Source of the DNA: an uncultured Christensenella sp.
GTDB lineage: Bacteria > Bacillota > Clostridia > Christensenellales > Pumilibacteraceae
Direction of reading: 5' to 3'
DNA length: 52,323 nucleotides
NCBI GenBank assembly: GCA_949948895.1
Contig: CATLHE010000013.1
Coordinates: 1 to 52,323, forward strand
The notes beneath the pieces are model-generated. The model was not told the DNA's origin, made no database searches, and saw nothing but the letters and a program-made list of their open reading frames with translations. Shown here piece by piece: positions 3,043-52,323 of the stretch. Positions within the stretch are counted from its first letter, which is position 1; every line of letters begins with the position of its first letter. The position numbers were made by a program, and so were the translations under genes.

Positions 3043-3215
3043 CGCCGCATGCATCTCGCGATAGTTCGTCAGCCGTCGCTTCGCCCTCGGTCGTTTGCCC
3101 GAAGCAAACTCCCGTCGGTCGGCGCTCGGATTTCCTGCTCTCGCGAGCGCCTGCGCCGTTACTACTATACATTTGATCGGCACATAATAATAAATAGGAG
3201 AAATCATTTGGTATT
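3043..3215 (+). repeat. Repeat fragment between hydB and hydA
   Basis: This 173-base gap inside the hydrogenase operon contains ATAGTTCGTCAGCCGTCGC at about 3061-3079. The same 19 bases recur at about 11175-11193, downstream of pyrC, where they head a cluster of intergenic repeats. The remainder is G+C-rich and partly self-complementary. Near the end, AGGAG at 3196-3200 is the only good ribosome binding site for hydA and lies 15 bases before its ATG. No coding frame is supported here. Confidence 0.6.
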
Positions 3216-4967
3216 ATGAAAAACATAAATCTTACTGTAAACGGCGTTCCCGTAACCGTTCCCGAGGGCACGCGTATACTCGACGCCGCTATAAAAGCGG
3301 GGTTCAAAGTTCCTACGCTCTGCTATATGAAAGATCTTTGCAACGAATCGAGCTGCCGCGTTTGCGTGGTCGAGATCAAGGGCAATCGTAAGCTCATGAC
3401 GGCGTGCTCGACGGTCGTTTCCGAGGGGATGGAGGTATTGACTAACACGCCCAAGGTGAGAGCGGCGCGTAAGATAACGTTGGAGCTTTTGCTCAGCAAT
3501 CATCATAAAGAATGTCTCAGTTGCGTCAGGAGCGGGAACTGCGAGCTTCAGGCGCTTGCTACCGAGTATGGCTGCGACGCGGAAAAGTACGGCGGCGCGA
3601 TGAATTCGTACGACGTAGACGACGCGACGGAGTTTTTGGTTCGCGATAATAATAAGTGCATACTTTGCCGCAGGTGCGTTGCGGCATGCAATAATGTTCA
3701 GACGGTAGGCGTTATCGATGCGAGCAATCGCGGGTTTGCGACCAAGATCGCAAGTCCGTTCGGGCGCAGTCTCGGAGACGTGCCGTGCGTGGCTTGCGGA
3801 CAGTGTATCAATGTTTGCCCGACGGGCGCGCTCAAAGAAAAGGACAGCGTTTCGGAAGTCGAGAAGCTTTTGGCGGACCCCGAAAAGACTGTTATTGTCG
3901 GTACCGCGCCCAGTGTTCGCGCGGCGCTCGGCGAGGAGTTCGGATATCCCGTCGGTACGGATACGGAAGGCAAAATGGTTGCGGCGCTCAAAGCGATCGG
4001 CTTTGACAGAGTATTCGACGTCGATATGGCGGCGGACATGACGATCATGGAAGAGGGCACGGAGTTCCTTGCGAGGCTCAACGATAAGAATGCGGTGCTG
4101 CCCATGATAACCTCGTGCAGTGCGGGCTGGATCAGGTTTATCGAGTTCAATTTCCCCGAGCTTTTGCCTAATCTGTCGTCGTGCAAATCGCCTCAGCAGA
4201 TGTTCGGCGCTATCATGAAAACGTACTATGCCAAAAAGACGGGTATCGATCCCAAGAATCTCGCGGTCGTTACGGTCATGCCGTGCATTGCCAAAAAGTT
4301 CGAGGTCACGCGCCCCGACGAGTGCGCGGCGGGCGAAGGCATACCCGACGTGGACGCGTCCATTACGACGCGTGAGCTCGCTAGAATGATCAAGAATTAC
4401 GGTATCGATTTCAAAGCGCTCGATTCCAAAACGCAGTTCGACGATCCTATCGGTAAGGGCAGTTCTGCGGGGCTTATATTCGGCGCGACGGGCGGCGTTA
4501 TGGAAGCCGCGCTCCGTACGGTTGCGGAAGTCGCGACGGGCAAGACGCTCGACAATATCGATTTTAAAGCCGTGCGCGGCACTAAGGGCATAAAGGAAGC
4601 GACTATAGTTCTCGGTGGCAAAACGCTTAATATCTGCGTGGCGAGCGGGCTCGGCAATGCGCGAAAGATAATGGACGAGGTCAAAGCGGGAAAGAGCAAG
4701 TATCACTTTATCGAGATAATGGCTTGCCCCGGCGGGTGTGTGAACGGCGGCGGTCAGCCGATAGTCAGTTCGTCCGACCGCAATGTCATCGACGTCGCCA
4801 AAAAGCGCGCGGGCGTGCTTTACAAAAAGGACAAGAAAGATGTGCTCAGGAAGTCGCACGTGAACCCCGTGGTCAAGACGCTGTACGACGAGTACTTCGG
4901 TCAGCCTGGCAGCGACACGGCGCACCACGTTCTCCATACGAGCTACGTCAAACGTAAAAAATACTGA
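3216..4967 (+). CDS. hydA: [FeFe] hydrogenase catalytic subunit (trimeric, group A3 type)
   Basis: The 583-residue catalytic subunit should reduce protons or oxidise H2 at the H-cluster, in the cytoplasm, with HydB and HydC. In order: plant-type [2Fe-2S] domain (C36, C47, C50, C64); His-Cys3 [4Fe-4S] motif (H96 or H97, C100, C103, C109); two [4Fe-4S] ferredoxin motifs (C148/151/154/158 and C191/194/197/201); then the H domain. The H-cluster motifs are TSCSAGW (299-305), MPCIAKKFE (C357) and EIMACPGGC (C504, C508). The first differs from the textbook TSCCPGW in having Ser302 and Ala303. A strong terminator follows. No maturase genes hydE, hydF or hydG are in the window. Confidence 0.96.
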   Translation: MKNINLTVNGVPVTVPEGTRILDAAIKAGFKVPTLCYMKDLCNESSCRVCVVEIKGNRKLMTACSTVVSEGMEVLTNTPKVRAARKITLELLLSNHHKECLSCVRSGNCELQALATEYGCDAEKYGGAMNSYDVDDATEFLVRDNNKCILCRRCVAACNNVQTVGVIDASNRGFATKIASPFGRSLGDVPCVACGQCINVCPTGALKEKDSVSEVEKLLADPEKTVIVGTAPSVRAALGEEFGYPVGTDTEGKMVAALKAIGFDRVFDVDMAADMTIMEEGTEFLARLNDKNAVLPMITSCSAGWIRFIEFNFPELLPNLSSCKSPQQMFGAIMKTYYAKKTGIDPKNLAVVTVMPCIAKKFEVTRPDECAAGEGIPDVDASITTRELARMIKNYGIDFKALDSKTQFDDPIGKGSSAGLIFGATGGVMEAALRTVAEVATGKTLDNIDFKAVRGTKGIKEATIVLGGKTLNICVASGLGNARKIMDEVKAGKSKYHFIEIMACPGGCVNGGGQPIVSSSDRNVIDVAKKRAGVLYKKDKKDVLRKSHVNPVVKTLYDEYFGQPGSDTAHHVLHTSYVKRKKY

Positions 4968-4974
4968 TAATGTT

Positions 4975-5005
4975 AAAAGCCGTACGCAATCGCGTGCGGC
5001 TTTTT
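4975..5005 (+). terminator. Terminator after hydA
   Basis: A 13-bp stem with one G-T pair (AAAAGCCGTACGC pairing with GCGTGCGGCTTTT) has a four-base loop AATC and ends in a run of T. It starts eight bases after the hydA stop and closes the hydrogenase operon. Confidence 0.9.
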
Positions 5006-5006
5006 C

Positions 5007-5825
5007 CAAGCCTTACGCTTGAGCGACTGTCGTGTATTGGCTTTGGTAATTGTTTTACGCGTCACCCGAATAAGTTCATCACATATAGTCATGTATTCGT
5101 AGGGAGCGCAGACCACTGCGCTCCGCCAAGCACAGCTTGGATTTTTGTCGTGTGCAAACCAAATGTTTGACGATTGTCGTGTGTCGGCTTTTTTGTTTAT
5201 TTTAAGTGACGCCCGAAAAATAGCGGAGTATATTGACCGTTGTCCGTAGGGAGCGCAGACCCCTGCGCTCCGCCAAGCACAATTTCAAACATTTGGTTTG
5301 CGGCGTGCCGAGTCGTCACGCCCTACGAAAGTTTTACAAGCGTTACCGTTTTTATTCGGGTGTTACTCATTTTATCGATATAATGTTTATACACGACATT
5401 CGTCCAACATTTGGTTGGTGCGGGCTAACGCCCTAGATCCTTCGGCGTTGCCTCAGGATGACAAGTGTCAATAGTGGGATATTTTGCTCATTATCCGTCG
5501 TTGTTTTATGGCTTGCACCCAGTTCTTGTCATTCTGAACGCAGTGAAGAATCTAGGCGAACCGCCGCATGCGAGGCACGTAAAACAAACGGCAACCAATA
5601 ACATGTGCCGCACTTATTCGGGTGCAATGCACAATTACCCACAACGCCCACACACGACAGTCGCTAAGCCTTTGGCTTGCGGGTTTGCGCCCTAGATCCT
5701 TCGGCTTCGCCTCAGGATGACAGGTATCAATAGCCGGATATGCTGTTTTGATATTTGTCGGGTGAAACGCAAAACAACCAATCAAGTAAACACACGACAG
5801 ACGTCCAACATTTGGTTGGAAAACA
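5007..5825. repeat. Intergenic cluster A of hairpin repeat modules
   Basis: No gene is supported in these 800 bases; they are a chain of palindromic modules shared with other gaps of the window. Module M1 (TAGGG then a hairpin): 5103-5124 and 5250-5271 with stem GGAGCGCAG/CTGCGCTCC, and 5302-5322 with stem GGCGTG/CACGCC. Module M2 (CATYC hairpin): 5437-5459, 5531-5551 and 5696-5718. Module M3 (CAAGC or CAAAC hairpin): 5126-5140, 5286-5300, 5404-5418, 5669-5681 and 5805-5819. Linkers are TCGTGTG/CACACGA and CACCCGAATAA. A degraded M3 copy at 5007-5025 touches the hydA terminator. Confidence 0.85.
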
Positions 5826-5826
5826 G

Positions 5827-5855
5827 TTGATTTAATAAGCGGTTTATGGTAAAAT
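5827..5855 (+). promoter_or_regulatory. Promoter of yggS-sepF-lspA-rluD-pyr operon
   Basis: TTGATT at 5827-5832, a 17-base spacer and TAAAAT at 5850-5855, with TG one base before the -10 (extended -10). The yggS start lies 19 bases further on with GGAG at 5863-5866. It begins right where repeat cluster A ends. Confidence 0.7.
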
Positions 5856-5874
5856 ATTAAACGGAGACATTTGC

Positions 5875-11160: not shown

Positions 11161-11651
11161 AGGCTTATCCACTCCGCAATAGTTCGTCAGCCGTCGCGCC
11201 GCCAAGCACAGCTTGGATTCCTGTCGTGTGTGTACGTTAGCGAATTGTTTTGCGTTACACCCGAATAATAGCGGAGCATATTGACTGTTGTCCGTATGGC
11301 GCGACGACCTCGGTGCTCCGCCAAGCATAGCTTGGATATCTGTCGTGTATGTGCTTTGGTTGTTGGTATTACGTTCCACCCGAACAAGATCGTTACATAT
11401 TTTCTTTTGTCATCCTGAGGCGAAGCCGAAGGATCTAGGCGAACCGCCGCAAAGCGTAAAAGTTAAACCTACTGCAATCTTTCTGTAGGGCGCGACGACC
11501 TCGGCGCGCCGCCAGCCAAATGTTTGACGAATGTCGTGTGTTTGCGTTGGTTGATGGTCGAGGTTCCACACGAATAAGAATAATCGCGCGCACGTTTGTA
11601 AGTACGGCTATACTGTTTAAAAAATTCAAAAAATATCATCATGGAGTAATA
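11161..11651. repeat. Intergenic cluster B of hairpin repeat modules
   Basis: This gap between pyrC and pyrF has no supported gene. It begins with the 19-base sequence also found between hydB and hydA (about 11175-11193). M3 hairpins with stem CCAAGC/GCTTGG are at about 11202-11216 and 11322-11336. M1 copies are at 11299-11318 (imperfect stem) and 11489-11510 (perfect GGCGCG/CGCGCC with inner CGA/TCG). An M2 hairpin is at 11412-11434, in the orientation opposite to the copies at 5437 and 17303. TCGTGTG...CACACGA or CACCCGA linkers occur at about 11226-11264 and 11535-11573. The pyrF ribosome binding site GGAG is at 11643-11646. Confidence 0.85.
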
Positions 11652-17155: not shown

Positions 17156-17224
17156 GCGATAAGTATATTATGCCGTTTATTTTGTGTGATTTAAATAGAG
17201 CGTTAACGTTGTTTGTTTTTTTCA

Positions 17225-18046
17225 GGCATAACATATAACAAATCGATAAAGTAAACACACCACATAAATTCAAGCTGTGCTTGGTGCGGGCTTACGCCCT
17301 AGATCCTTCGGCTTCGCCTCAGGATGACAGAGGAAAAGGCGTTGGATATATTGTATCAACCGTTGCGGTTTGTTTACCGTCACCCAATCGTAGGGAGCGC
17401 AGACCCCTGCGCTCCGCAAACCAAATGTTTGACGGATGTCGTGTGTTTGCATGGGTGGTTTGTTTGTTGTTGCGCCCGAATAATTCCGTTTCAAAATACA
17501 ACGGCGTGCCGAGTCGTCACGCCTACGATTGGGTAACAATATTATTCGGGTGTGTCGTTCTTATTCCGACAGCGCCGATAAGCGACAGAAGTCAAGCCTT
17601 TGGCTTGTCATTCCGAGCTTGCGAGGAATCTAGGCGAACCGCCGCATGGTTGTTACGCATAACAAGCGATATATCGCACGCTATTATTCGGGTGTGCCGT
17701 AATTTTATCGTTCATGCCCACACACGACAGACGCCAAGCGTAAGGCTTGCGGGCTTACGCCCTAGATCCTTCGGCTTCGCCTCAGGATGACAGGTAAAAT
17801 TACGTGGTATATTCTTTATCAACAGTCGCAGTTTGTTTATCATATGCCACACGAAAAACGGACGATATGTTCCATTATTTTTCGGGTGTAACATAAAATA
17901 AATCGATCAAGTCAACACACGACATAAATCGAAGCTGTGCTTGGCAGCGTGCCGAGTCGTCACGCCCTACGGACATAAATCAATATGTACCGTTATTATT
18001 CGAGTGTGTCGCCAATTTTTTTCGATAACGCCAACACACGACAAAT
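17225..18046. repeat. Intergenic cluster C of hairpin repeat modules
   Basis: No gene is supported between the HAD gene and the rqcH 3' end. M2 copies: 17303-17325 and 17766-17788 (ATCCT/AGGAT stem) and 17610-17629 (ATTCC/GGAAT stem). M1 copies: 17394-17415 (GGAGCGCAG/CTGCGCTCC), 17503-17523 (GGCGTG/CACGCC) and a degraded one at about 17946-17967. M3 hairpins occur near 17593-17607 and 17735-17748. Linkers TCGTGTG/CACACGA with partner CACCCGA/TCGGGTG recur at about 17439-17480, 17689-17728 and 17999-18042. The hairpins before M2 read GGGCTTACGCCC (about 17288-17299 and 17750-17761). Confidence 0.85.
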
Positions 18047-30430: not shown

Positions 30431-30585
30431 AACCTTGCGGTTATGAAATATTTTGCTGTCGCAAAAATGAAATAGCGCGAAGCGCAATGAAATAAAATTC
30501 GACCATAATATGCGAAGCATATTTCATACGCGATAGCGTATTTCATGGCGAAGCTATTTCATTCGACCGTAGGTCGAATCTCATT
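30431..30585. repeat. Array of seven or eight very small hairpins joined by ATGAAAT/ATTTCAT
   Basis: Successive mini-palindromes are AACC-ttgc-GGTT, TTTTGC-tgtc-GCAAAA, GCGC-gaa-GCGC, a half-unit ATTCGACC, ATATGC-gaa-GCATAT, TACGC-gata-GCGTA, GC-gaa-GC and ATTCGACC-gta-GGTCGAAT. On the left they are joined by ATGAAAT, on the right by its reverse complement ATTTCAT, so the joining motif changes direction around 30510. It ends against the terminator of tRNA-Ala. Confidence 0.85.
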
Positions 30586-30618
30586 GAAAAAGCCTTCGCG
30601 GATAGCGAAGGCTTTTTC
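30586..30618 (-). terminator. Terminator of tRNA-Ala
   Basis: Perfect 13-bp stem AAAAAGCCTTCGC with GCGAAGGCTTTTT and a five-base loop, with T run in the minus-strand direction. Directly follows the tRNA. Confidence 0.92.
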
Positions 30619-30694
30619 TGGTGGAGATAAGCGGGTTCGAACCGCTGACCTCTTGAATGCCATTCAAGCGCTCTACCAACTGAGCTATACCCCC
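30619..30694 (-). tRNA. tRNA-Ala (anticodon GGC)
   Basis: A 76-base cloverleaf on the minus strand: acceptor GGGGGTA with TATCTCC (two G-T pairs), D arm GCTCAGTTGGTAGAGC, anticodon stem CTTGA/TCAAG with loop ATGGCAT (anticodon GGC, alanine GCC/GCU codons), T arm with GTTCGAA, encoded CCA. Single-gene unit with its own terminator. Confidence 0.95.
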
Positions 30695-35920: not shown

Positions 35921-36904
35921 ATGACAGACAAAAGATTGTTGCCGATAAAGATATGGGAGATACTGTATAGGGAAACCGATGAGAATCATCCTATGGGGAC
36001 GGAGACGCTGCGGGCTAAGCTTTTCGAGTGCGGTTTCGACTGCGATCGTCGCGCTGTTTACGACAGTATCGACTTGTTAAACAAGAACGGTTACGAGATA
36101 AAAAAGAATAGAAAAAGATCGTACGAGTATTTTGTGGTCGATCGTCCTTTTGACGACGCCGAGCTTCAAATACTGATGGACGCAGTGCAGGCGGCAAGCT
36201 TTATCACGGCGAAAAAGACAAAAGAGTTTATTGCCAAGATAGCCGATCTAGCGGGCAAAATGCGCGCCGAGCTCATGCAAAAAAGCAAGGTCGAGTTTAA
36301 TACGCCCAAGAGCGACAACGAGCATATCTATTATTCCGTCGATAGGATAGGTACGGCGATAGAGCAAAAAAAGCAGATTTCGTTTTTGTACTTCGATTAC
36401 GATATCGATCGCTCGCGGGTTTACAGAAAAGAAAAAATGCGTTACGTCGTGAATCCGCTCGCCACGGTATTTTCAAACGATAATTACTATCTCATGTGCT
36501 ATGACGACAAGCATGACGATATCGGTCACTACCGCATAGACCGTATGGACGAGGTGGAGATATCGGATGCGCCCGTTACCGAAACGGATAGACGGTTCAA
36601 TTTGGCAAAGCACAAAAAACAGCTTTTCAATATGTTTAACGGGAGCGACGCGCGCGTCACGTTTATTGCAGATAAAACGCTCATAGACCATATATTCGAC
36701 AAGTTCGGAAAAGATATAGATATTGCAAGAATGGAGGACGGCTCGGTTCGATTTACCGCCGACGTGAAAGAAAGCGAGGCGTTCTTCGGTTGGTGTTGTT
36801 CTTTTGGAAAAAAACTTAAAGTCATTGCGCCTAAAAGCACGGTGCGCGCGCTTAAAAGCTATGCGGAAGAAATAGCGGCACAATATGACCGAGGCGAGCA
36901 ATGA
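35921..36904 (+). CDS. WYL-domain transcriptional regulator of the CRISPR-Cas locus
   Basis: The 327-residue protein has an N-terminal winged helix (about 5-70: KIWEILYRETDENHPMGTETL, DRRAVYDSIDLLNKNGY), a WYL domain (about 135-225; VNPLATVFSNDNYYLMCY, HYRIDRMDEVEI) and a C-terminal WCX-like part. WYL regulators often control phage-defence operons, mostly as repressors. Here it is the first gene of the cas operon and overlaps cas3 by four bases (ATGA). It has no Shine-Dalgarno because its mRNA appears to start at the ATG. WYL domains are thought to sense nucleic acid or a nucleotide ligand; the signal here is unknown. Confidence 0.9.
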   Translation: MTDKRLLPIKIWEILYRETDENHPMGTETLRAKLFECGFDCDRRAVYDSIDLLNKNGYEIKKNRKRSYEYFVVDRPFDDAELQILMDAVQAASFITAKKTKEFIAKIADLAGKMRAELMQKSKVEFNTPKSDNEHIYYSVDRIGTAIEQKKQISFLYFDYDIDRSRVYRKEKMRYVVNPLATVFSNDNYYLMCYDDKHDDIGHYRIDRMDEVEISDAPVTETDRRFNLAKHKKQLFNMFNGSDARVTFIADKTLIDHIFDKFGKDIDIARMEDGSVRFTADVKESEAFFGWCCSFGKKLKVIAPKSTVRALKSYAEEIAAQYDRGEQ

Positions 36905-39114
36905 GCGAAAGGAAATTTTATGCGCATACGGCGGAAAACGGAGAGTGGGAACCTCTCGAGGAACATCTTTTGTCGACCGCGAAAACGGCGCGCTCTCTTG
37001 CGCTTTTGCCTTTTGCCGATATGGCTTTCGACGCGGGGCTTTGGCACGACGTCGGTAAAGCGTCGCATGAGTTTCAGTCGTATCTGTGCGGCAAGAGCGG
37101 GCGTGTCGAGCATGCCGTTTGCGGCGCGCAGCAGATAAACAGGCGCAAGCATTTATGTAAAGATATGTGGGCGGCGACTGCGCTCATGTACGTTATATCC
37201 GGTCATCATGCGGGCTTGCCCGATTACGGCACGCGCACCGATAACGAGGACATGCCGACGCTTACAGCCAAGCTCAAGCGCATGTGTCCCGACTGCGGCG
37301 AGTATGCCGACGGGCTGATCGATCTAACAAAAACATGCTCGGCGTATACCGAGTTTTTGCAGGACGGACTTACGGCGGACGGTGAGTCCGTATCCCGTTT
37401 GCGCGAGAAATTCGTGTTTTCGGTCAGATATTTATTCAGTCTTTTGACCGACGCGGACTTTTTGGAGACGGAGGCGTTTTGCTTGGGCAGGCGCGCCGAA
37501 TCGAAATGCGATTTTGCCGCCGCAGAGGAAAAGCTTGTGAAAAAGCTCGCGGAGTTTAAAGCCGATACCCAAGTAAAAAAGGCGCGCTCTGATCTTCAAT
37601 CGTCCGCGCTCGCGGCAGTCGATGCGTCGTCCGAGATATTTTCGTTGGACATGCCTACGGGTAGCGGTAAAACACTGACGGGCTTGCGGCTCGCTCTTAG
37701 ACTGTTGCGCGAACGCGGGCTGAAGCGGATAATATACATAATACCGTATACGAGCATACTCGATCAAACGTATGAGGTTTTCAAAGAATTTTTTGCTGAC
37801 GACGAGATACTAGTTTGCCACAGTAATTTCGATTTTGATGAGTACGCGAACGGCGTAAACAAGTCGGAAACAGACTACGGCGAAAGGTCGGCAGTCGATA
37901 AAATGAAAAAGTCCGCCGAAAATTTCGACGCGCCCATAGTTCTTACTACAAACGTTAGGTTCTTCGAATCCATATACTCAAACCGCAGCAGCAGGCTTAG
38001 AAAACTCCACAATTTGACGGAAAGCGTATTGGTGTTTGACGAGATACATACGCTGCCAATAAAGTATTTTCAGCCGTGCTTTTCCGCTATAGAGCAGCTC
38101 ACCGAAAACTACAAAAGTACTGCGATATTCATGACTGCGACCATGCCCGATTTTGCGGACTTGTGCGAGCGGTACGTAAGGCGGCGAATGGGCATAACGC
38201 TGCTAATAAAGGATAAACGCGGTTTTTCGGCGTTTCATAACTGCGGCTTCGAGTATTTGGGCGAGTGCGACGACGAGCGGATAGCGATTCTTGCCGCGCA
38301 AAATAAGAGCGCGCTTATCATAGTCAACAGCCGTAAGAAAGCGGTCGAATTGTATAACGCGGCGGTCGGTAATAAAGTGCATCTTTCAACTTCGATGACG
38401 CCAAATGACAGAGCGGCGGCTTTTAAAAAGATACGCGCCGCGCTCGATAACGGAGAGCAGATAACGGTCGTATCTACTTCGCTCATAGAAGCGGGCGTCG
38501 ATCTCGATTTCGATACTGTCTATCGCGAGCTTGCGGGGCTTGACAACATATTGCAGTCTGCGGGCAGGTGCAATCGTGAAGGCAAAAAAAGCAATTGCAC
38601 GACTTATATATTCGAATGCGACGGAGCTGGCAGCTCGGAGCTCGAAGCCAAAATGAGCATTACGCGCAGGCTCATAGACAAGTACGGCGCGGGCGGGCTG
38701 AGAGCGGACGAGTGTATAAAGGAGTACTACGACGAGATTTATAAGTTTTCGATATCGCACGGCGGAGTAAAAAATTACATGACCGATGCGAAGGACTTTA
38801 TAGGTGACAAGCCGTATAAATACAATTTCGCGACGTATGCGGATAAGTTCAAGCTGATAGAGGACGCGTCGTACGGCGTAATAATTCCCGACGCGGATAT
38901 AAAAGAAGAGCTTGAAAAGCTCAGTCGCGTCGGTCATGCCGACAGGCGCAAGCTGAGAAAGTTTACCGCGTCCGCAACGTACTCGACGGCGAAAGACCTT
39001 ATGGAGTGCGGGGCGTTGGAGCGTTTGGGCGAATACCTGATACTGCGCATGCCCGAATATTACAGCGAGGACGTCGGTCTGACAGCCGACGCGTTCGAAC
39101 TGAAAATCATTTGA
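36901..39114 (+). CDS. cas3: Cas3 helicase-nuclease, type I-C
   Basis: Cas3 nicks and degrades target DNA after Cascade binding. The 737-residue protein has an N-terminal HD nuclease with H49-D50 in AGLWHDVGKAS, H71, HH at 102-103 and D184, and a superfamily 2 helicase with Walker A PTGSGKT (252-258), VFDEIHTLP near 378, ATMPDF, and motif VI QSAGRCNREG near 552. All the catalytic residues expected are visible, so the enzyme looks active. It overlaps the WYL gene by four bases. The next gene, cas5c, starts 17 bases after its stop. Confidence 0.96.
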   Translation: MSERKFYAHTAENGEWEPLEEHLLSTAKTARSLALLPFADMAFDAGLWHDVGKASHEFQSYLCGKSGRVEHAVCGAQQINRRKHLCKDMWAATALMYVISGHHAGLPDYGTRTDNEDMPTLTAKLKRMCPDCGEYADGLIDLTKTCSAYTEFLQDGLTADGESVSRLREKFVFSVRYLFSLLTDADFLETEAFCLGRRAESKCDFAAAEEKLVKKLAEFKADTQVKKARSDLQSSALAAVDASSEIFSLDMPTGSGKTLTGLRLALRLLRERGLKRIIYIIPYTSILDQTYEVFKEFFADDEILVCHSNFDFDEYANGVNKSETDYGERSAVDKMKKSAENFDAPIVLTTNVRFFESIYSNRSSRLRKLHNLTESVLVFDEIHTLPIKYFQPCFSAIEQLTENYKSTAIFMTATMPDFADLCERYVRRRMGITLLIKDKRGFSAFHNCGFEYLGECDDERIAILAAQNKSALIIVNSRKKAVELYNAAVGNKVHLSTSMTPNDRAAAFKKIRAALDNGEQITVVSTSLIEAGVDLDFDTVYRELAGLDNILQSAGRCNREGKKSNCTTYIFECDGAGSSELEAKMSITRRLIDKYGAGGLRADECIKEYYDEIYKFSISHGGVKNYMTDAKDFIGDKPYKYNFATYADKFKLIEDASYGVIIPDADIKEELEKLSRVGHADRRKLRKFTASATYSTAKDLMECGALERLGEYLILRMPEYYSEDVGLTADAFELKII

Positions 39115-44450: not shown

Positions 44451-44595
44451 CTGCGAACCGTCGGCGATACTGTTTTGCCGATCGGTTCGCGGCAATAAAT
44501 TACATTTTTAGACGATTTTACGGCAAGATTTTCTTGCCGAAATCGAAATATGTCCGCTTCTTGTGGGTGCATCCAATCTCTACGCAAAATATAGA
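44451..44595 (+). promoter_or_regulatory. CRISPR leader with two inverted repeats
   Basis: Directly after cas2, GCGAACCGTCGGC pairs with GCCGATCGGTTCGC (about 44453-44493) with one bulged base, a likely end of the cas mRNA. A second perfect hairpin, CGGCAAGA-TTT-TCTTGCCG at 44521-44539, is extended by CGATTT and AAATCG. The following 56 bases up to the first repeat are A+T-rich. Position between cas2 and the least mutated repeats marks this as the leader side. Confidence 0.75.
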
Positions 44596-47500
44596 GTGGC
44601 GCCCCGCGAGGGGCGTGTGAGTTGAAATGAGCAGTTCTGCCCGGCGGGTAGTTTGGTCGAGTTCAGTGGCGCCCCGCGAGGGGCGTGTGAGTTGAAATCA
44701 TAGACTTGATTTTTTTGATTTCGTCGCTGTATGTGGCGCCCCGCGAGGGGCGTGTGAGTTGAAATAACGAGCTTGCAAAGCGCGAGAGGACGGGGAAAAG
44801 AGTGGCGCCCCGCGAGGGGCGTGTGAGTTGAAATGCCGATTACAAGACCGGCACGGCGGTGGACAAGGGTGGCGCCCCGCGAGGGGCGTGTGAGTTGAAA
44901 TGATATGCTCGCGCATTTTTGTGTTGAAATTGTTGTGGCGCCCCGCGAGGGGCGTGTGAGTTGAAATTGGAATTCCCGGCGATTTCGTGCCCGTTGTTGT
45001 CGTGGCGCCCCGCGAGGGGCGTGTGAGTTGAAATTCTTAAAGCGTCGGTTTAAGTTGACCGATACGGGGTGGCGCCCCGCGAGGGGCGTGTGAGTTGAAA
45101 TACCTCGGGAACCTCGTCATCCCAGCGTCCTTGATTGTGGCGCCCCGCGAGGGGCGTGTGAGTTGAAATATTACTTCATAGACGACCGAACGCAAGCGAC
45201 GGTGTGTGGCGCCCCGCGAGGGGCGTGTGAGTTGAAATGATCTACAAAGTTTACATACAAGTCGCCGTTTTCTTGTGGCGCCCCGCGAGGGGCGTGTGAG
45301 TTGAAATGGTTGGTTGGGCGTACATATTAACCGTATATCGGAGTGGCGCCCCGCGAGGGGCGTGTGAGTTGAAATTTTCGTTGAACTACAAGGAAAGCGA
45401 AAAAGGAAAGTGGCGCCCCGCGAGGGGCGTGTGAGTTGAAATTTTGTAAATTGTATCGGTGTTTCCGATTATCAAGTGGCGCCCCGCGAGGGGCGTGTGA
45501 GTTGAAATTTTGAGGGGGTTTACGGGGGAAACTTCCCCCGTGTGGCGCCCCGCGAGGGGCGTGTGAGTTGAAATTATTTTATGGAGGTGCAAACATGACG
45601 GACACAGGTGGCGCCCCGCGAGGGGCGTGTGAGTTGAAATTATATCGTACATGTCGCGGGCAAAGGTTACCAATTGTGGCGCCCCGCGAGGGGCGTGTGA
45701 GTTGAAATTAACATGAGGCAACGGCTGTCCTTTTCGATTGTTGTGGCGCCCCGCGAGGGGCGTGTGAGTTGAAATTTGTATGGAACGGAAAAACAATATC
45801 GCCGCGAATGTGGCGCCCCGCGAGGGGCGTGTGAGTTGAAATAAATTTTACGAGTACAACATTTCGACGCGTTACGACGGTGGCGCCCCGCGAGGGGCGT
45901 GTGAGTTGAAATTCGCCTTGACCCGTTAAAATCACACCGACAAATAGTGGCGCCCCGCGAGGGGCGTGTGAGTTGAAATCTTAAATTTTGCCGTATTTGT
46001 CGGCGTATTCTTTGTGGCGCCCCGCGAGGGGCGTGTGAGTTGAAATAACACGAAGGTAGTCACCGGACTCGTAAGATTTTGTGGCGCCCCGCGAGGGGCG
46101 TGTGAGTTGAAATTACATTTCATAAATTTCATAATATGTACTCCTTGTGGCGCCCCGCGAGGGGCGTGTGAGTTGAAATTATATAGGGTTTTCTTTACTT
46201 CTGGGTCTGTTAAAGTGGCGCCCCGCGAGGGGCGTGTGAGTTGAAATTATAAACTTCCTTTATAGTATCAACTGTCATATCAGTGGCGCCCCGCGAGGGG
46301 CGTGTGAGTTGAAATGACAAAAAAATACTGCTAATTTACAATAGGTTTGTGTGGCGCCCCGCGAGGGGCGTGTGAGTTGAAATATTAAACGAAAGCTGTT
46401 CGTAACCGGTGCCGTTAGTGGCGCCCCGCGAGGGGCGTGTGAGTTGAAATTCGGTCGGGTTGCTTATGTTGCCACCCCCGCCGCCTGTGGCGCCCCGCGA
46501 GGGGCGTGTGAGTTGAAATGACAAAATAACAGTGCTAATTTACAATAGGTTTGTGTGGCGCCCCGCGAGGGGCGTGTGAGTTGAAATCCTATCGACGGGC
46601 ACACGCTGACCTTCGGCTTCTGGTGGCGCCCCGCGAGGGGCGTGTGAGTTGAAATGACGAACCCGCCACCATGCAGAGCGTGAAGAAGAGTGGCGCCCCG
46701 CGAGGGGCGTGTGAGTTGAAATGCCGAGTGCATCGAGTACGGATCCCCGCGCATATCGTGGCGCCCCGCGAGGGGCGTGTGAGTTGAAATGACGATGTTC
46801 CCGAAGCACCTGATGCACCTGTTAGTGGCGCCCCGCGAGGGGCGTGTGAGTTGAAATGAAGCGATGATCACAAAACAAAAGCCCCGCCGAGCGGGTGGCG
46901 CCCCGCGAGGGGCGTGTGAGTTGAAATGACGATAATCGCGACCGCATCCACCAGCTGAATGAGTGGCGCCCCGCGAGGGGCGTGTGAGTTGAAATGGGGA
47001 GTTATCAAAGACAATGCGACCGTATACAACGGTGGCGCCCCGCGAGGGGCGTGTGAGTTGAAATTCGAACTGCTTGCAAGTATGAACGCAACGGACGGTG
47101 GCGCCCCGCGAGGGGCGTGTGAGTTGAAATGCCGAAATACTATGTAATGCAAAAAAAACACTCGTGGCGCCCCGCGAGGGGCGTGTGAGTTGAAATTATC
47201 GTGGCTCGACTGCTGCGTGCCGCTTATTATCGTGGCGCCCCGCGAGGGGCGTGTGAGTTGAAATGATAACATCGACGACCCGCGAGTTACGTTAAACCCG
47301 TGGCGCCCCGCGAGGGGCGTGTGAGTTGAAATGCCGAAATACTATGTAATGCAAAAAAAACACTCAGTGGCGCCCCGCGAGGGGCGTGTGAGTTGAAATA
47401 ATATCGTTGCAAGGTTCGTGTAGATGCATCGATGTGGCGCCCCGCGAGGGGCGTGTGAGTTGAAATTGCTGATTTCGTCAACACTCTTTTTGAAGTTTAC

Positions 47501-50500
47501 GGTGGCGCCCCGCGAGGGGCGTGTGAGTTGAAATCTGGAAGCTGTTTGCGATGTAGAAGAGCATGATGTGGCGCCCCGCGAGGGGCGTGTGAGTTGAAAT
47601 TACAAAGACGGCGGATGTCGCCAAAGTGTTCCATGTGGCGCCCCGCGAGGGGCGTGTGAGTTGAAATGCCACTTGCGCCGCGTCCCCGCCGTTTGTATTT
47701 CGGTGGCGCCCCGCGAGGGGCGTGTGAGTTGAAATTCGGTTGGTGCAAGCGTAATAATGATATTTAACGCGTGGCGCCCCGCGAGGGGCGTGTGAGTTGA
47801 AATTTATGGTGTAATACTCAACGACGGTTGTTTCGACGGTGGCGCCCCGCGAGGGGCGTGTGAGTTGAAATTGTCTTTTTAACAACCAACAATGCGGAGG
47901 TTAAAGTGGCGCCCCGCGAGGGGCGTGTGAGTTGAAATGCCCCAACTTTGAAAAACACACACCTAAATTTTGACTGTGGCGCCCCGCGAGGGGCGTGTGA
48001 GTTGAAATAAAGTTATCGTCCATGTCCCACTCGAAAACGATTGTGGCGCCCCGCGAGGGGCGTGTGAGTTGAAATCGAGATTTTGCATATCGTTGCAGCC
48101 CGCCACTTGTGGCGCCCCGCGAGGGGCGTGTGAGTTGAAATCGTAGTTACGCCAAACATACCTATACGAATTATTGTGGCGCCCCGCGAGGGGCGTGTGA
48201 GTTGAAATCAAGTGCTGTATATCATAATGTTCAAGAACCTAAGTGGCGCCCCGCGAGGGGCGTGTGAGTTGAAATTTTGTTTCTATCGCAAAACTTTGAG
48301 CCGTTGAATGTGGCGCCCCGCGAGGGGCGTGTGAGTTGAAATTGCGGGTACAAGCTCGATTATCGGTAGGTTCGATGTGGCGCCCCGCGAGGGGCGTGTG
48401 AGTTGAAATCGCGAGCTTAAAAACAAATTCAATTATCGGCAATGTGGCGCCCCGCGAGGGGCGTGTGAGTTGAAATTACCGATACCGAGCGACTTCGAGC
48501 GCATAACCGAGTGGCGCCCCGCGAGGGGCGTGTGAGTTGAAATGAGGAGTTGCGTCCACGTTACCGTCTTGTTTTTCCAGTGGCGCCCCGCGAGGGGCGT
48601 GTGAGTTGAAATTATGTCGATGAAGAGCTTTTTAGCCGAAGAGTGGCGCCCCGCGAGGGGCGTGTGAGTTGAAATGACGCTATAAACGGCATAATAGCTA
48701 ACGGCAAATGTGGCGCCCCGCGAGGGGCGTGTGAGTTGAAATTCCGCACTCATGGACGTGATACCCATGCCGTCAAGTGGCGCCCCGCGAGGGGCGTGTG
48801 AGTTGAAATGCGGTAAGCGCCATGGCCTGCGGTGCGACATCCTGTGGCGCCCCGCGAGGGGCGTGTGAGTTGAAATGCCGAGAAGTTTAAAGCACCGTCG
48901 GCGCTTATCGTGTGGCGCCCCGCGAGGGGCGTGTGAGTTGAAATGAAATGGAGCGCATAAACGGACGGTTCAAAACGGGTGGCGCCCCGCGAGGGGCGTG
49001 TGAGTTGAAATGGTATTATGCGATGAATGCGGTGCAGAATGCACACGTGGCGCCCCGCGAGGGGCGTGTGAGTTGAAATCCTGGTGAAGGTGAATTCGGT
49101 CGTAACTGGCTTGGAGTGGCGCCCCGCGAGGGGCGTGTGAGTTGAAATCTGTTACTGCTTCCGGTATTTCGGCTGCAGCTCGTGTGGCGCCCCGCGAGGG
49201 GCGTGTGAGTTGAAATTTAACTGAGCATAAAGCTGACGAGCTGATTCCAGTGGCGCCCCGCGAGGGGCGTGTGAGTTGAAATCCGAAGAAGAATGAGTAG
49301 TAACATCACGCAAAAAGTGGCGCCCCGCGAGGGGCGTGTGAGTTGAAATGCCCGTCGTAATATCCGTAGACGGCGAAGAGATCGGTGGCGCCCCGCGAGG
49401 GGCGTGTGAGTTGAAATGCTAACGTAAACAACTACGTCGACGGTATCATATCGTGGCGCCCCGCGAGGGGCGTGTGAGTTGAAATCCATAATTGCCCGAC
49501 TTTGGGAATCCAGCTCATAGGTGGCGCCCCGCGAGGGGCGTGTGAGTTGAAATTTCGTAGGGAGTGAGAAGAACAATATCGCAAGGATGTGGCGCCCCGC
49601 GAGGGGCGTGTGAGTTGAAATGTTAATGCCGAGAGCGTACCGTGGCGCGATCTGGTGGCGCCCCGCGAGGGGCGTGTGAGTTGAAATTGCAAGGCGATTG
49701 GAAAACGGAGTTAAGGAAAGGTGGCGCCCCGCGAGGGGCGTGTGAGTTGAAATGCGTATTCGCGCCGAAAATATAGGCGTATACGTTGTGGCGCCCCGCG
49801 AGGGGCGTGTGAGTTGAAATTGGATATGAACACATCGGATATAGAGGGATTACGGTGGCGCCCCGCGAGGGGCGTGTGAGTTGAAATCCCAAATGGACAG
49901 TCGCATCTGTCATAGACCGTGCGTGGCGCCCCGCGAGGGGCGTGTGAGTTGAAATGTCAACACTTTGGATTCTTCCGAGGGGTCTATCGTGTGGCGCCCC
50001 GCGAGGGGCGTGTGAGTTGAAATATCGCAAGGTATCGCATACAAACCCGTCTTTGCGCGTGGCGCCCCGCGAGGGGCGTGTGAGTTGAAATCCACGAGGA
50101 GATAAAGTAGCAACAGCAGGATCCAGTGGCGCCCCGCGAGGGGCGTGTGAGTTGAAATGTTATTTCTATAAGGTTTTCGATCGCGAAGGCGTGTGGCGCC
50201 CCGCGAGGGGCGTGTGAGTTGAAATCTATGTACCTATCGCCTATGTAATCGCCCTGCGGTGTGGCGCCCCGCGAGGGGCGTGTGAGTTGAAATGCGGCTT
50301 ATGAATATGTTATACATCATTTGAGAGAGGTGGCGCCCCGCGAGGGGCGTGTGAGTTGAAATCGGTCTTACTGCCGTCGTAAAACATTTCTTTGTCGTGG
50401 CGCCCCGCGAGGGGCGTGTGAGTTGAAATGACTTGAGCAGCGTCACCGCCGCTGAAAAACGCGGTGGCGCCCCGCGAGGGGCGTGTGAGTTGAAATGTAC

Positions 50501-52323
50501 AAGTACGACGATATTGCAAAGACCGTCGAGGTGGCGCCCCGCGAGGGGCGTGTGAGTTGAAATGGTATGGCGAAAGCCGCCGGGCGCGGACTGTTCGGTG
50601 GCGCCCCGCGAGGGGCGTGTGAGTTGAAATGAAATCTGTTGTTACATGACTGTAAAAGTTAGCCGGTGGCGCCCCGCGAGGGGCGTGTGAGTTGAAATGC
50701 CATAGTCTACCCCACTAATGATGGTCGATTAGAGTGGCGCCCCGCGAGGGGCGTGTGAGTTGAAATCATTATAACCGAACACATTTTTATTAACGCCGCG
50801 TGGCGCCCCGCGAGGGGCGTGTGAGTTGAAATGCCTACACGGGGCAAACGCCCCGTGTAATTGTTAGGGTGGCGCCCCGCGAGGGGCGTGTGAGTTGAAA
50901 TCGGGGTTTAGGATCATGATTGAGTAGCAATGCGCGGTGGCGCCCCGCGAGGGGCGTGTGAGTTGAAATGCCCGTGATCGTCGAAGTGATAACAAACAGT
51001 CCGTGTGGCGCCCCGCGAGGGGCGTGTGAGTTGAAATCGCTATTGGAAGCCGCTTCAACCGTTATGATTATTGTGGCGCCCCGCGAGGGGCGTGTGAGTT
51101 GAAATCAAACAATACAACTTAAAATGCCACGATATTATTAGTGGCGCCCCGCGAGGGGCGTGTGAGTTGAAATCAAACAATACAACTTAAAATGCCACGA
51201 TATTATTAGTGGCGCCCCGCGAGGGGCGTGTGAGTTGAAATACAAAATAAAAGATTTATACGCGTTACATTTGATGTGGCGCCCCGCGAGGGGCGTGTGA
51301 GTTGAAATATCAATCCGTTCGGTGACGACGAGATATTTCAAGAGTGGCGCCCCGCGAGGGGCGTGTGAGTTGAAATGCGAACTTCGAGCGAAACGGCTTG
51401 TCGGTGTTCATGTGGCGTCCCACGTGGGGCGCGTGAGTTGAAATAAGTGGGCTAAGTCCGACGACCCTACGACGTGGTGTGGCGCCCACATGGGGCGCGT
51501 GAGTTGAAATGTCGAGGTAAGCACATTACCCTGAATGATACAAGTGGCGCCCCACGTGGGGCGTGTGAGTTGAAATTTTGCGAATTTTCGGCAGATACGG
51601 GACGCATTATGTGGCGCCCCACGTGGGGCGTGTGAGTTGAAATATCTGGGCATAAACGGTAAAGGCTCGGGCTGGGCGTGTGAGTTGAAATTTTGTCCGA
51701 GGCATTTGATGTTGCCGAGGATTGGCGTGTGAGTTGAAATGTCTTGCGCGTAATCGGCGTCGTATTCGATAGGGTAGTGGCGCCCCGCAAGGGGCGTGTG
51801 AGTTGAAATTGAACCTGTCGATGATTTCCTGTCCGTCCAGCGGGGTGGCACCCCGCAAGGGGCGTGTGAGTTGAAATTCGGTAATCCGAACGCCTTGATC
51901 GGTACGGGATTGTGGCGCCCCGCGAGGGGCGTGTGAGTTGAAACGCGAAGAGGAGCGTCAGCTACTTTCTGCCACAAAGTGGCGCCCCGCGAGGGGCGTG
52001 TGAGTTGAAATTTTAATTTTTCGTTCGATGACCTCTCTTGGCAAGAGTGGCGCCCCGCAAGGGGCGTGTGAGTTGAAATATGCAAGACTTCGCCGCACTC
52101 TGAGCAGTGCGAACGTGGCGCCCCGCAAGGGGCGTGTGAGTTGAAATGTCGTGTTTGTCGTCGTTACCCCGTTTTACGACAAAGTGGCGCCCCGCGAGGG
52201 GCGTGTGAGTTGAAATGAACCATCGGCAGGTAAAGGCGACATATTAGATTGCTGTGGCGCCCCGCGAGGGGCGTGTGAGTTGAAATGTGCCGTCGGTATA
52301 TATCTTACATTCGGGGATTAGTG
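44596..52323 (+). CRISPR. Type I-C CRISPR array, about 115 repeats, runs off the window
   Basis: The 33-base repeat begins GTGGCG, has a stem CGCCCC/GGGGCG around GCGA, and ends GAGTTGAAAT, the tail usual for type I-C crRNA handles, so transcription is on the plus strand from the leader at 44451-44595. I count 115 repeat starts by eye, two of them truncated; spacers are mostly 33-37 bases. The last repeat in the window is 52254-52286 and its spacer continues past the end, so the true size is larger. Repeats are nearly uniform up to 51376 and vary after that. One spacer is present twice at a distance, one pair is nearly identical, and one is tandemly duplicated. Confidence 0.98.
51412..51740 (+). 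repeat. Variant and truncated CRISPR repeats in the older part of the array
   Basis: Repeats at 51412, 51479, 51544 and 51611 have CACGTG or CACATG in place of the central GCGAGG region; the one at 51479 is a base short and the first two also read GCGTGAG instead of GTGTGAG. Two more, at about 51674-51691 and 51724-51740, keep only the 3' half. Beyond, 51777, 51845, 52047 and 52115 have GCAAGG, while 51912, 51979, 52184 and 52254 again have GCGAGG. Confidence 0.9.

Follow-up and report, generated by a model that had tools for sequence, protein, structure and literature searches.

A TGTC-tagged hairpin repeat with a constant tandem G-A core in the intergenic mosaics of a Christensenella genome, a candidate REP-like mobile DNA element

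A 52,323-nucleotide stretch of DNA from an uncultured Christensenella sp., analysed here as a whole and called the window (contig 13 of a 1.86-Mb genome in 24 contigs, 94.5% complete), raises the question of what maintains a short repeated hairpin whose stems change while two GA dinucleotides stay opposite each other, and whether it is read as RNA or as DNA. A sequence-only reading had described seven copies of one design, in which an outer and an inner stem are separated by GA on both sides. All seven were recovered at the positions it gave, GA faces GA in 7/7, and the outer arms are those it had listed, ATCCT/AGGAT in five copies, ATTCT/AGAAT in one and ATTCC/GGAAT in one; the range it had put on them, 5437-5718, spans just three of the seven.

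We call the hairpin unit P1. It consists of TGTC, a 5-nt arm, GA, 2-3 nt, a loop, 2-3 nt, GA, a second 5-nt arm and CTA, so that the stem is made of 5 bp, GA/GA and 2-3 bp with short loops. On the minus strand the window copies lie at 5434-5462 (core 5437-5459; GGC/GCC inner stem, GTC tag, CTA tail), 5693-5721 (core 5696-5718), 17300-17328 (core 17303-17325) and 17763-17791 (core 17766-17788), all with ATCCT arms. Those on the plus strand are at 5528-5554 (core 5531-5551; ATTCT arms, AC/GT inner stem), 11409-11437 (core 11412-11434; ATCCT arms, at the pyrC-pyrF junction) and 17607-17632 (core 17610-17629; ATTCC arms, GC/GC inner stem). Rfam at the gathering threshold gave no family over the window's repeats. 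Elsewhere in the window Rfam matches a Gut-1 RNA at 30516-30586 (minus strand; score 51.6, gathering score 50) which is adjoined by a tRNA at 30622-30694, and a long CRISPR array with the repeat GTGGCGCCCCGCGAGGGGCGTGTGAGTTGAAAT occupies 44592-52323 downstream of a cas3 gene at 36901-39114; the 38-nt frame of this repeat was counted 115 times in the stretch searched, with a spacing of 66-70.

Across the 1.86-Mb genome the pattern GTCATYCYGAN{3,14}GARGRATCTA has 106 matches (47 forward, 59 reverse), and its reversed control has none. The stretches fetched from this genome hold 142 listed copies, with TGTC as the tag in 135 and CGTC in one, although the tag was absent from the scan pattern; the tails are CTA in 104, CCA in 18 and CTT in 14. 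For the pairing tests one tagless copy was removed, leaving 141, with one presumed chance match retained. The stem starts with A-T, T-A in 141/141, the AT being demanded by the search patterns.

The distribution of P1 among genomes is patchy. The 19 other genomes of the genus carry 0-14 copies each, only four of 17 genomes from other genera of the family have any (36, 21, 20 and 2 copies), and a phylum sample gave a match in 13 of 398 genomes, our own counted. An exact match to the 30-mer of the main type was also met on one contig each in Cyanobacteria (UBA9971), Gastranaerophilales and Omnitrophota. Genome-wide, G116 has eight forward and no reverse copies and G155 has 31 forward and 29 reverse; at the loci L167, L170 and L171 of these two genomes, similarly flanked copies stand about 330-540 bp apart, all on the plus strand there. 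In G017 (L156-L158) relatives of P1 are tagged ATCATT and end in CAA or CCA, and in some of them the inner arm is long, ATTTCGACCG...CGGAGAAAT; the family is therefore broader than the counting pattern. A literature search by sequence returned no related paper on P1.

The window copies lie in three repeat islands. Island A (4968-5874) reaches from a gene ending at 4967 (plus strand) to a YggS-family gene (5875, plus), island B (11161-11651) from dihydroorotase (pyrC) to orotidine-5'-phosphate decarboxylase (pyrF), and island C (17156-18046) from a HAD-family gene (plus) to an EfbA/RqcH-like gene (minus). Besides P1 they contain a skeleton S of 44-47 bp, running from the TGTCGTGT box to CACCCGAATAA. 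The pyrC-pyrF junction, 491 bp of repeats in our genome, was fetched from 17 of the 19 same-genus relatives, and neither P1 nor S is present in any of the 17. Among the matches listed, pyrF follows pyrC in 16 of them, the aligned stretches being separated by 16-69 bases where our genome has 501; in G009 a different gene follows pyrC. Nor was P1 found in the island A stretches of 14 relatives or in the island C stretches of three, while G002 is the only relative among those fetched with S-like matches, two of them, in its island A stretch. The islands look lineage-specific.

Given these data we lean towards the reading that P1 is a REP-like, TGTC-tagged, non-autonomous DNA element that spreads by means of a trans-acting recombinase reading the folded single strand. 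It would move between genes, either alone or within composite units that have an inverted P1 copy at each end, the two differing in their arms.

The arrangement of neighbouring copies bears on this last point. Sixty pairs of P1 lie less than 200 bp apart, 22 head to head, 23 tail to tail and 15 head to tail (tags outside in 22, inside in 23, in the same direction in 15). Among the 45 inverted pairs the outer arms are unlike in 43 and one partner has ATCCT arms in all 45; same-arm pairs number two where 16.8 are expected, and none of 20000 draws was as low, these draws ignoring shared descent. Many inverted pairs share their spacers (mostly near 66, 95 or 142 bp) and so their descent. Direct pairs have the same arms in 8 of 15. 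By eye, among the matches listed, close inverted pairs are unlike in 7/7 in G034 but share their outer arms in 12/12 in G025, which makes the unlike-arm rule lineage-specific: it holds in our genome, not generally. A more specific proposal, that the pairs are the unlike ends (ATCCT plus ATTCY) of a non-autonomous single-stranded DNA element, with a recombinase reading the tandem G-A loop and with arms kept different so that each end pairs within itself and not with the other, can only be put forward tentatively and is on the unlikely side.

The islands are mosaics in which P1 is accompanied by three further palindromes. The first, P2, is a small hairpin directly after the P1 tail (GGCG-AAC-CGCC, GGGC-GTAA-GCCC or GGC-GTA-GCC), in the window at 5422-5433 (minus strand, GGGC/GCCC) and 5555-5565 (plus, GGCG AAC CGCC), both abutting a P1 tail. 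The idea that P2 is a constant component of the element was rejected, because a stem of at least 4 follows the tail in only 3 of 18 copies from same-genus relatives and in 11 of 44 outside the genus, all from two of 14 genomes; these second hairpins occur in G155 and G116 only, as GCCC/GGGC and once as GCTC/GAGC. P3 is a hairpin that precedes the TGTCGTGT box and whose stems are matched but of many kinds (CCAAGC/GCTTGG, CAAGCC/GGCTTG, CCAAC/GTTGG and others), a stem of at least 5 being present in 163/185 sites and in 6.7% of base shuffles; in the window it adjoins the box at 5404-5418 (minus, CCAAC/GTTGG). The skeleton S has 100 exact matches in our genome and 0-3 in each of 19 relatives, with any at all in eight, and lies in the window at 5028-5073 and 11222-11268 (plus) and at 5352-5398, 5614-5659 and 17684-17729 (minus). 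A lone S stands after the same gene end (read as rubrerythrin-like) in G007 (L161), G016 (L163) and G013 (L164); these may be old single copies of the module amplified in our genome. The fourth palindrome, P4, is GGCGTG...CACGCC and variants.

Sitting among other palindromes, P1 may owe its spread to them instead of being mobile itself. In this case it would be a passive or recombination-prone module like the dRS3 of Neisseria, and the islands would grow by recombination and shuffling with no dedicated enzyme. Such an explanation accords with the slot after CGGNNCATAT, which holds P1 in 6 of 17 sites and P4, by eye, in seven or eight of the remaining eleven, as well as with the many combinations in which the flank types of P1 occur. 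It also has a parallel in dRS3, which the text of PMC3733652, as far as it was available, places in the CGTC-1 family, the CGTC-1 elements of Neisseria being interleaved with other repeats. However, it leaves unexplained how new sites, among them the pyrC-pyrF junction, were first reached, and likewise the solitary P1 copies in other genomes which, by eye, have no evident shared flanks. We judge it unlikely.

If P1 acted in RNA, its hairpins, transcribed at the ends of genes, could shield the mRNA, serve as a protein-binding site or terminate transcription, with the tandem G-A as an RNA motif. Gene calls by codon scoring were obtained for 37 of 56 islands (19 without a call), and 29 of the 37 lie between co-directional genes, 6 between convergent and 2 between divergent ones, so that most are downstream of a gene; this tally covers the island gaps only. 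None of 119 copies lies inside a scored open reading frame. A tally by longest open reading frame (21 co-directional, 19 divergent, 10 convergent and 10 without a frame; 20 copies on the same strand, 21 on the opposite) was dropped since antisense frames misled it, as with 3204-5009 on the minus strand over 3216-4967 on the plus strand. The location downstream of genes speaks for an RNA role, and so do the bases flanking the GA, which suit tandem sheared G-A pairs, and the ATCCT type, which beats its shuffles when folded as RNA (z -2.53). Yet in co-directional gaps P1 has the strand of the genes in 30 cases and the opposite one in 29, a random split that counts against a role which would favour one strand; the other two types fold as RNA no better than shuffles (z 0.26 and 0.02), and the islands are missing from the matching junctions of the fetched relatives. 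Taken together these three results do not support an RNA role, which we hold to be quite improbable.

Folding of the GA strand as DNA gave -4.5 kcal/mol for the ATCCT type, -1.2 for ATTCT/AC and -1.8 for the third (z -1.82, 0.27 and -0.15), and for ATTCT/AC the best predicted DNA fold differs from the P1 hairpin. Two of the three types tested thus have no advantage over shuffles in either DNA or RNA folding, and single P1 hairpins are predicted to be weak. Random orientation, together with islands that look lineage-specific, speaks for a DNA element that spreads rather than for a function in RNA, and P1 is better read as an element acting at the level of DNA.

Whether the arms are held to pairing was assessed by pair counts against shuffles and by slid partners. 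Outer arms are fully Watson-Crick in 130 of the 141 own-genome copies, whereas shuffling the arms gave 48.0 on average and at most 68 (2000 shuffles). The main classes are ATCCT/AGGAT with 56 copies, ATTCT/AGAAT with 48 and ATTCC/GGAAT with 26. Reduced to distinct haplotypes, 31 of 42 are complementary (shuffled mean 13.6, maximum 24; 5000), and 75 of 83 distinct sequences among the matches listed from the own-genome, family and phylum scans are fully Watson-Crick (shuffled mean 26.8, maximum 41; 5000), so the claim that arms keep pairing across classes is borne out. With outer pairs 1, 2 and 4 predetermined by the search patterns, what is tested is the pairing at outer pairs 3 and 5 and at the first inner pair, which is standard in 80/83 of the distinct sequences among the matches listed (shuffles 73.3, maximum 78; 5000).

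Covariation was scored on a selection of 56 sequences, 27 of the 83 listed being left out: 98.2% of the cells pair, the covariation score is 0.350 against 0.195 when shuffled, none of 500 shuffles being as high, and 39 cells are altered on both sides against 13.3. When partners were slid by 1-3 columns the paired cells in this selection fell to 11-54%. Within the selection, three pairs with changes on both sides and six further pair types were counted, which is not above shuffles (408/500 as high). Most copies belong to three inherited arm classes, so that the copy number greatly exceeds the number of independent compensatory events; the tests show kept pairing, not a tally of independent events.

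As the GA had been part of the search, a core-blind anchor was also used, AT...AT with 12-24 nt between, TC or TT before and C[CT][AT]GG[CG] after. It returned GA/GA in 119 of 123 sites; the other four comprise three register slips of GA/GA copies and one coding-like site. The constancy of GA/GA hence survives a search that does not ask for GA. A narrower core-blind pattern gave 44 sites, all with GA/GA, and a tag-anchored variant 128 of 155, the other 27 being two register slips and 25 sites which look unrelated. The inner neighbours of GA were left free by the search patterns, and in the 83 distinct sequences listed the left GA is followed by a purine in 83 and the right GA is preceded by a pyrimidine in 82. 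Tandem sheared G-A pairs prefer such flanking bases, and the sequences would fit this geometry.

Template-switch correction that perfects quasi-palindromes, without selection, would yield the perfect arms of 130/141 copies with few intermediates, but it would also erase GA/GA, which stays in 122/123 core-blind sites with the three slips included, and this persistence makes such a mutational origin of the matched arms very improbable. The persistence of the mismatch speaks for recognition, and folding of the single strand is probably relevant at some step. Of the selection on a folded RNA or single-stranded DNA that the sequence-only reading had proposed, the kept pairing and the invariant GA/GA stand, while an RNA role is not supported by orientation, by the absence from relatives or by the folding of two of the three types.

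A REP-associated transposase elsewhere in the genome had been suggested as a check, and it was searched with Pfam PF01797, with NCBIfam NF047646 and with one RAYT protein of the family as query. None of the 20 genus genomes has a match to NF047646. PF01797 matches four of them, G000 (our own), G010, G015 and G017, at full length in G010 and G015. In our genome the single Y1 match is a decayed remnant of 46 residues with a stop, which we take to be IS200-like. The genes in G010, G015 and G017 have no P1 in their fetched flanks, and these genomes hold 1, 1 and 1 copies of P1. The RAYT protein query gave nothing convincing in the genus, its weak matches (E 0.05 to 0.33) being taken as chance. As the genome is 94.5% complete, the gene of the enzyme may be missing from the assembly.

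In the wider set NF047646 matches 17 of 61 genomes at E <= 0.001, only G034 above the curated cut-off; 'RAYT-like' is a loose label here, some NF047646 matches also being good PF01797 matches. At the 20 loci fetched of 32 such matches in the family, the 1.5 kb on either side of the RAYT-like gene are free of P1 as far as the contigs reach. Larger stretches have P1 in 4 of 16: the nearest copy among the fetched relatives is 1.7 kb from the gene (G035, L077), G025 has copies at 2.3 and about 6 kb (L071, L072), and in G034 the stretch L075 bears P1 without the RAYT-like gene. Each of the three genomes from other genera that are rich in P1 possesses RAYT-like genes. As 10 of the 17 family genomes outside the genus possess them too, this co-occurrence is no evidence of a link. 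In G025 and G035 (L072, L078) RAYT-like genes are adjoined, by eye, by short GC-rich palindromes of the CCGCCCG type, unlike P1.

For the element favoured above we infer the following course. The GA strand would fold, while single-stranded in DNA, into the short hairpin, and the recognition signature would be the 2x2 GA/GA internal loop together with the 5' TGTC tag and the 3' CTA tail. The reader would be a trans-acting recombinase, most likely of the HUH/Y1 type, that is not encoded beside the repeats. The arms could then drift in matched pairs because only their fold is read, and the mismatch would stay fixed because it is read directly. Counting against this course are the lack of a transposase beside the repeats in the RAYT and Y1 searches, the mosaic setting of P1 and the weakness of the single hairpins.

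Three known systems invite comparison. E. coli TnpA-REP requires unpaired bases in the REP stem plus the 5' tag and cuts at a CT beside the REP, and for group 2 REPs the unpaired stem bulge is needed, according to the portions of Corneloup and colleagues (PMC8266576) on which we draw. P1 resembles the GTAG REPs that go with RAYT/TnpA-REP (REPtrons, REPINs) in having a tag plus hairpin, unpaired stem bases and inverted pairs. It differs in its tag, TGTC and not GTAG, in the lack of a RAYT-model match in the genus, and in that the RAYT-like genes fetched from the family are not flanked by P1. In our reading P1 may work like the REP of TnpA-REP but is no GTAG REP. With the intergenic mosaics of Neisseria it shares CGTC-type palindromes amid other repeats, as far as PMC3733652 describes them. 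Our impression is that the other modules here look different from those of the dRS3 mosaics. A GA/GA core is not known from dRS3.

The third system is that of the CGTC-tagged REPs, which are characterised, in the text available of Di Nocera, De Gregorio and Rocco (2013; PMC3733652), by a CGTC or TGTC tag, a stem of 8-9 bp starting with AT, a loop of 4-5 nt and a 3-nt tail that is mostly CCA; they are described there as intergenic and without an associated transposase gene, their dimers often join unlike units (CGTC-2 and -3) with HH predominant and TT rare, and what moves the CGTC/TGTC type was left open in 2013. P1 agrees in its TGTC/CGTC tag, intergenic location and dimers of unlike units, and in having no transposase beside it (RAYT models in 20 genus genomes; 20 family loci, 1.5 kb). 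It has a 3-nt tail of another consensus, and the AT with which its stem starts was demanded by the search. Its stem is broken by the invariant GA/GA and reaches 8-9 bp only if GA/GA is counted as paired, its tail is mostly CTA, not CCA, TT pairs (23) are as frequent as HH pairs (22), and it forms mosaics with P2, P3, P4 and S, which the text available on the CGTC REPs does not mention. More than 100 copies, empty sites in relatives, a structural bait signature and the unlike-arm rule make the mobility of CGTC/TGTC REPs testable, and if the two-ended single-stranded element reading is true it would supply the missing class of mobiliser for REPs of this type. We call P1 closest to the CGTC/TGTC-tagged REPs, its new features being the fixed tandem G-A core and the amplification in one lineage within intergenic mosaics.
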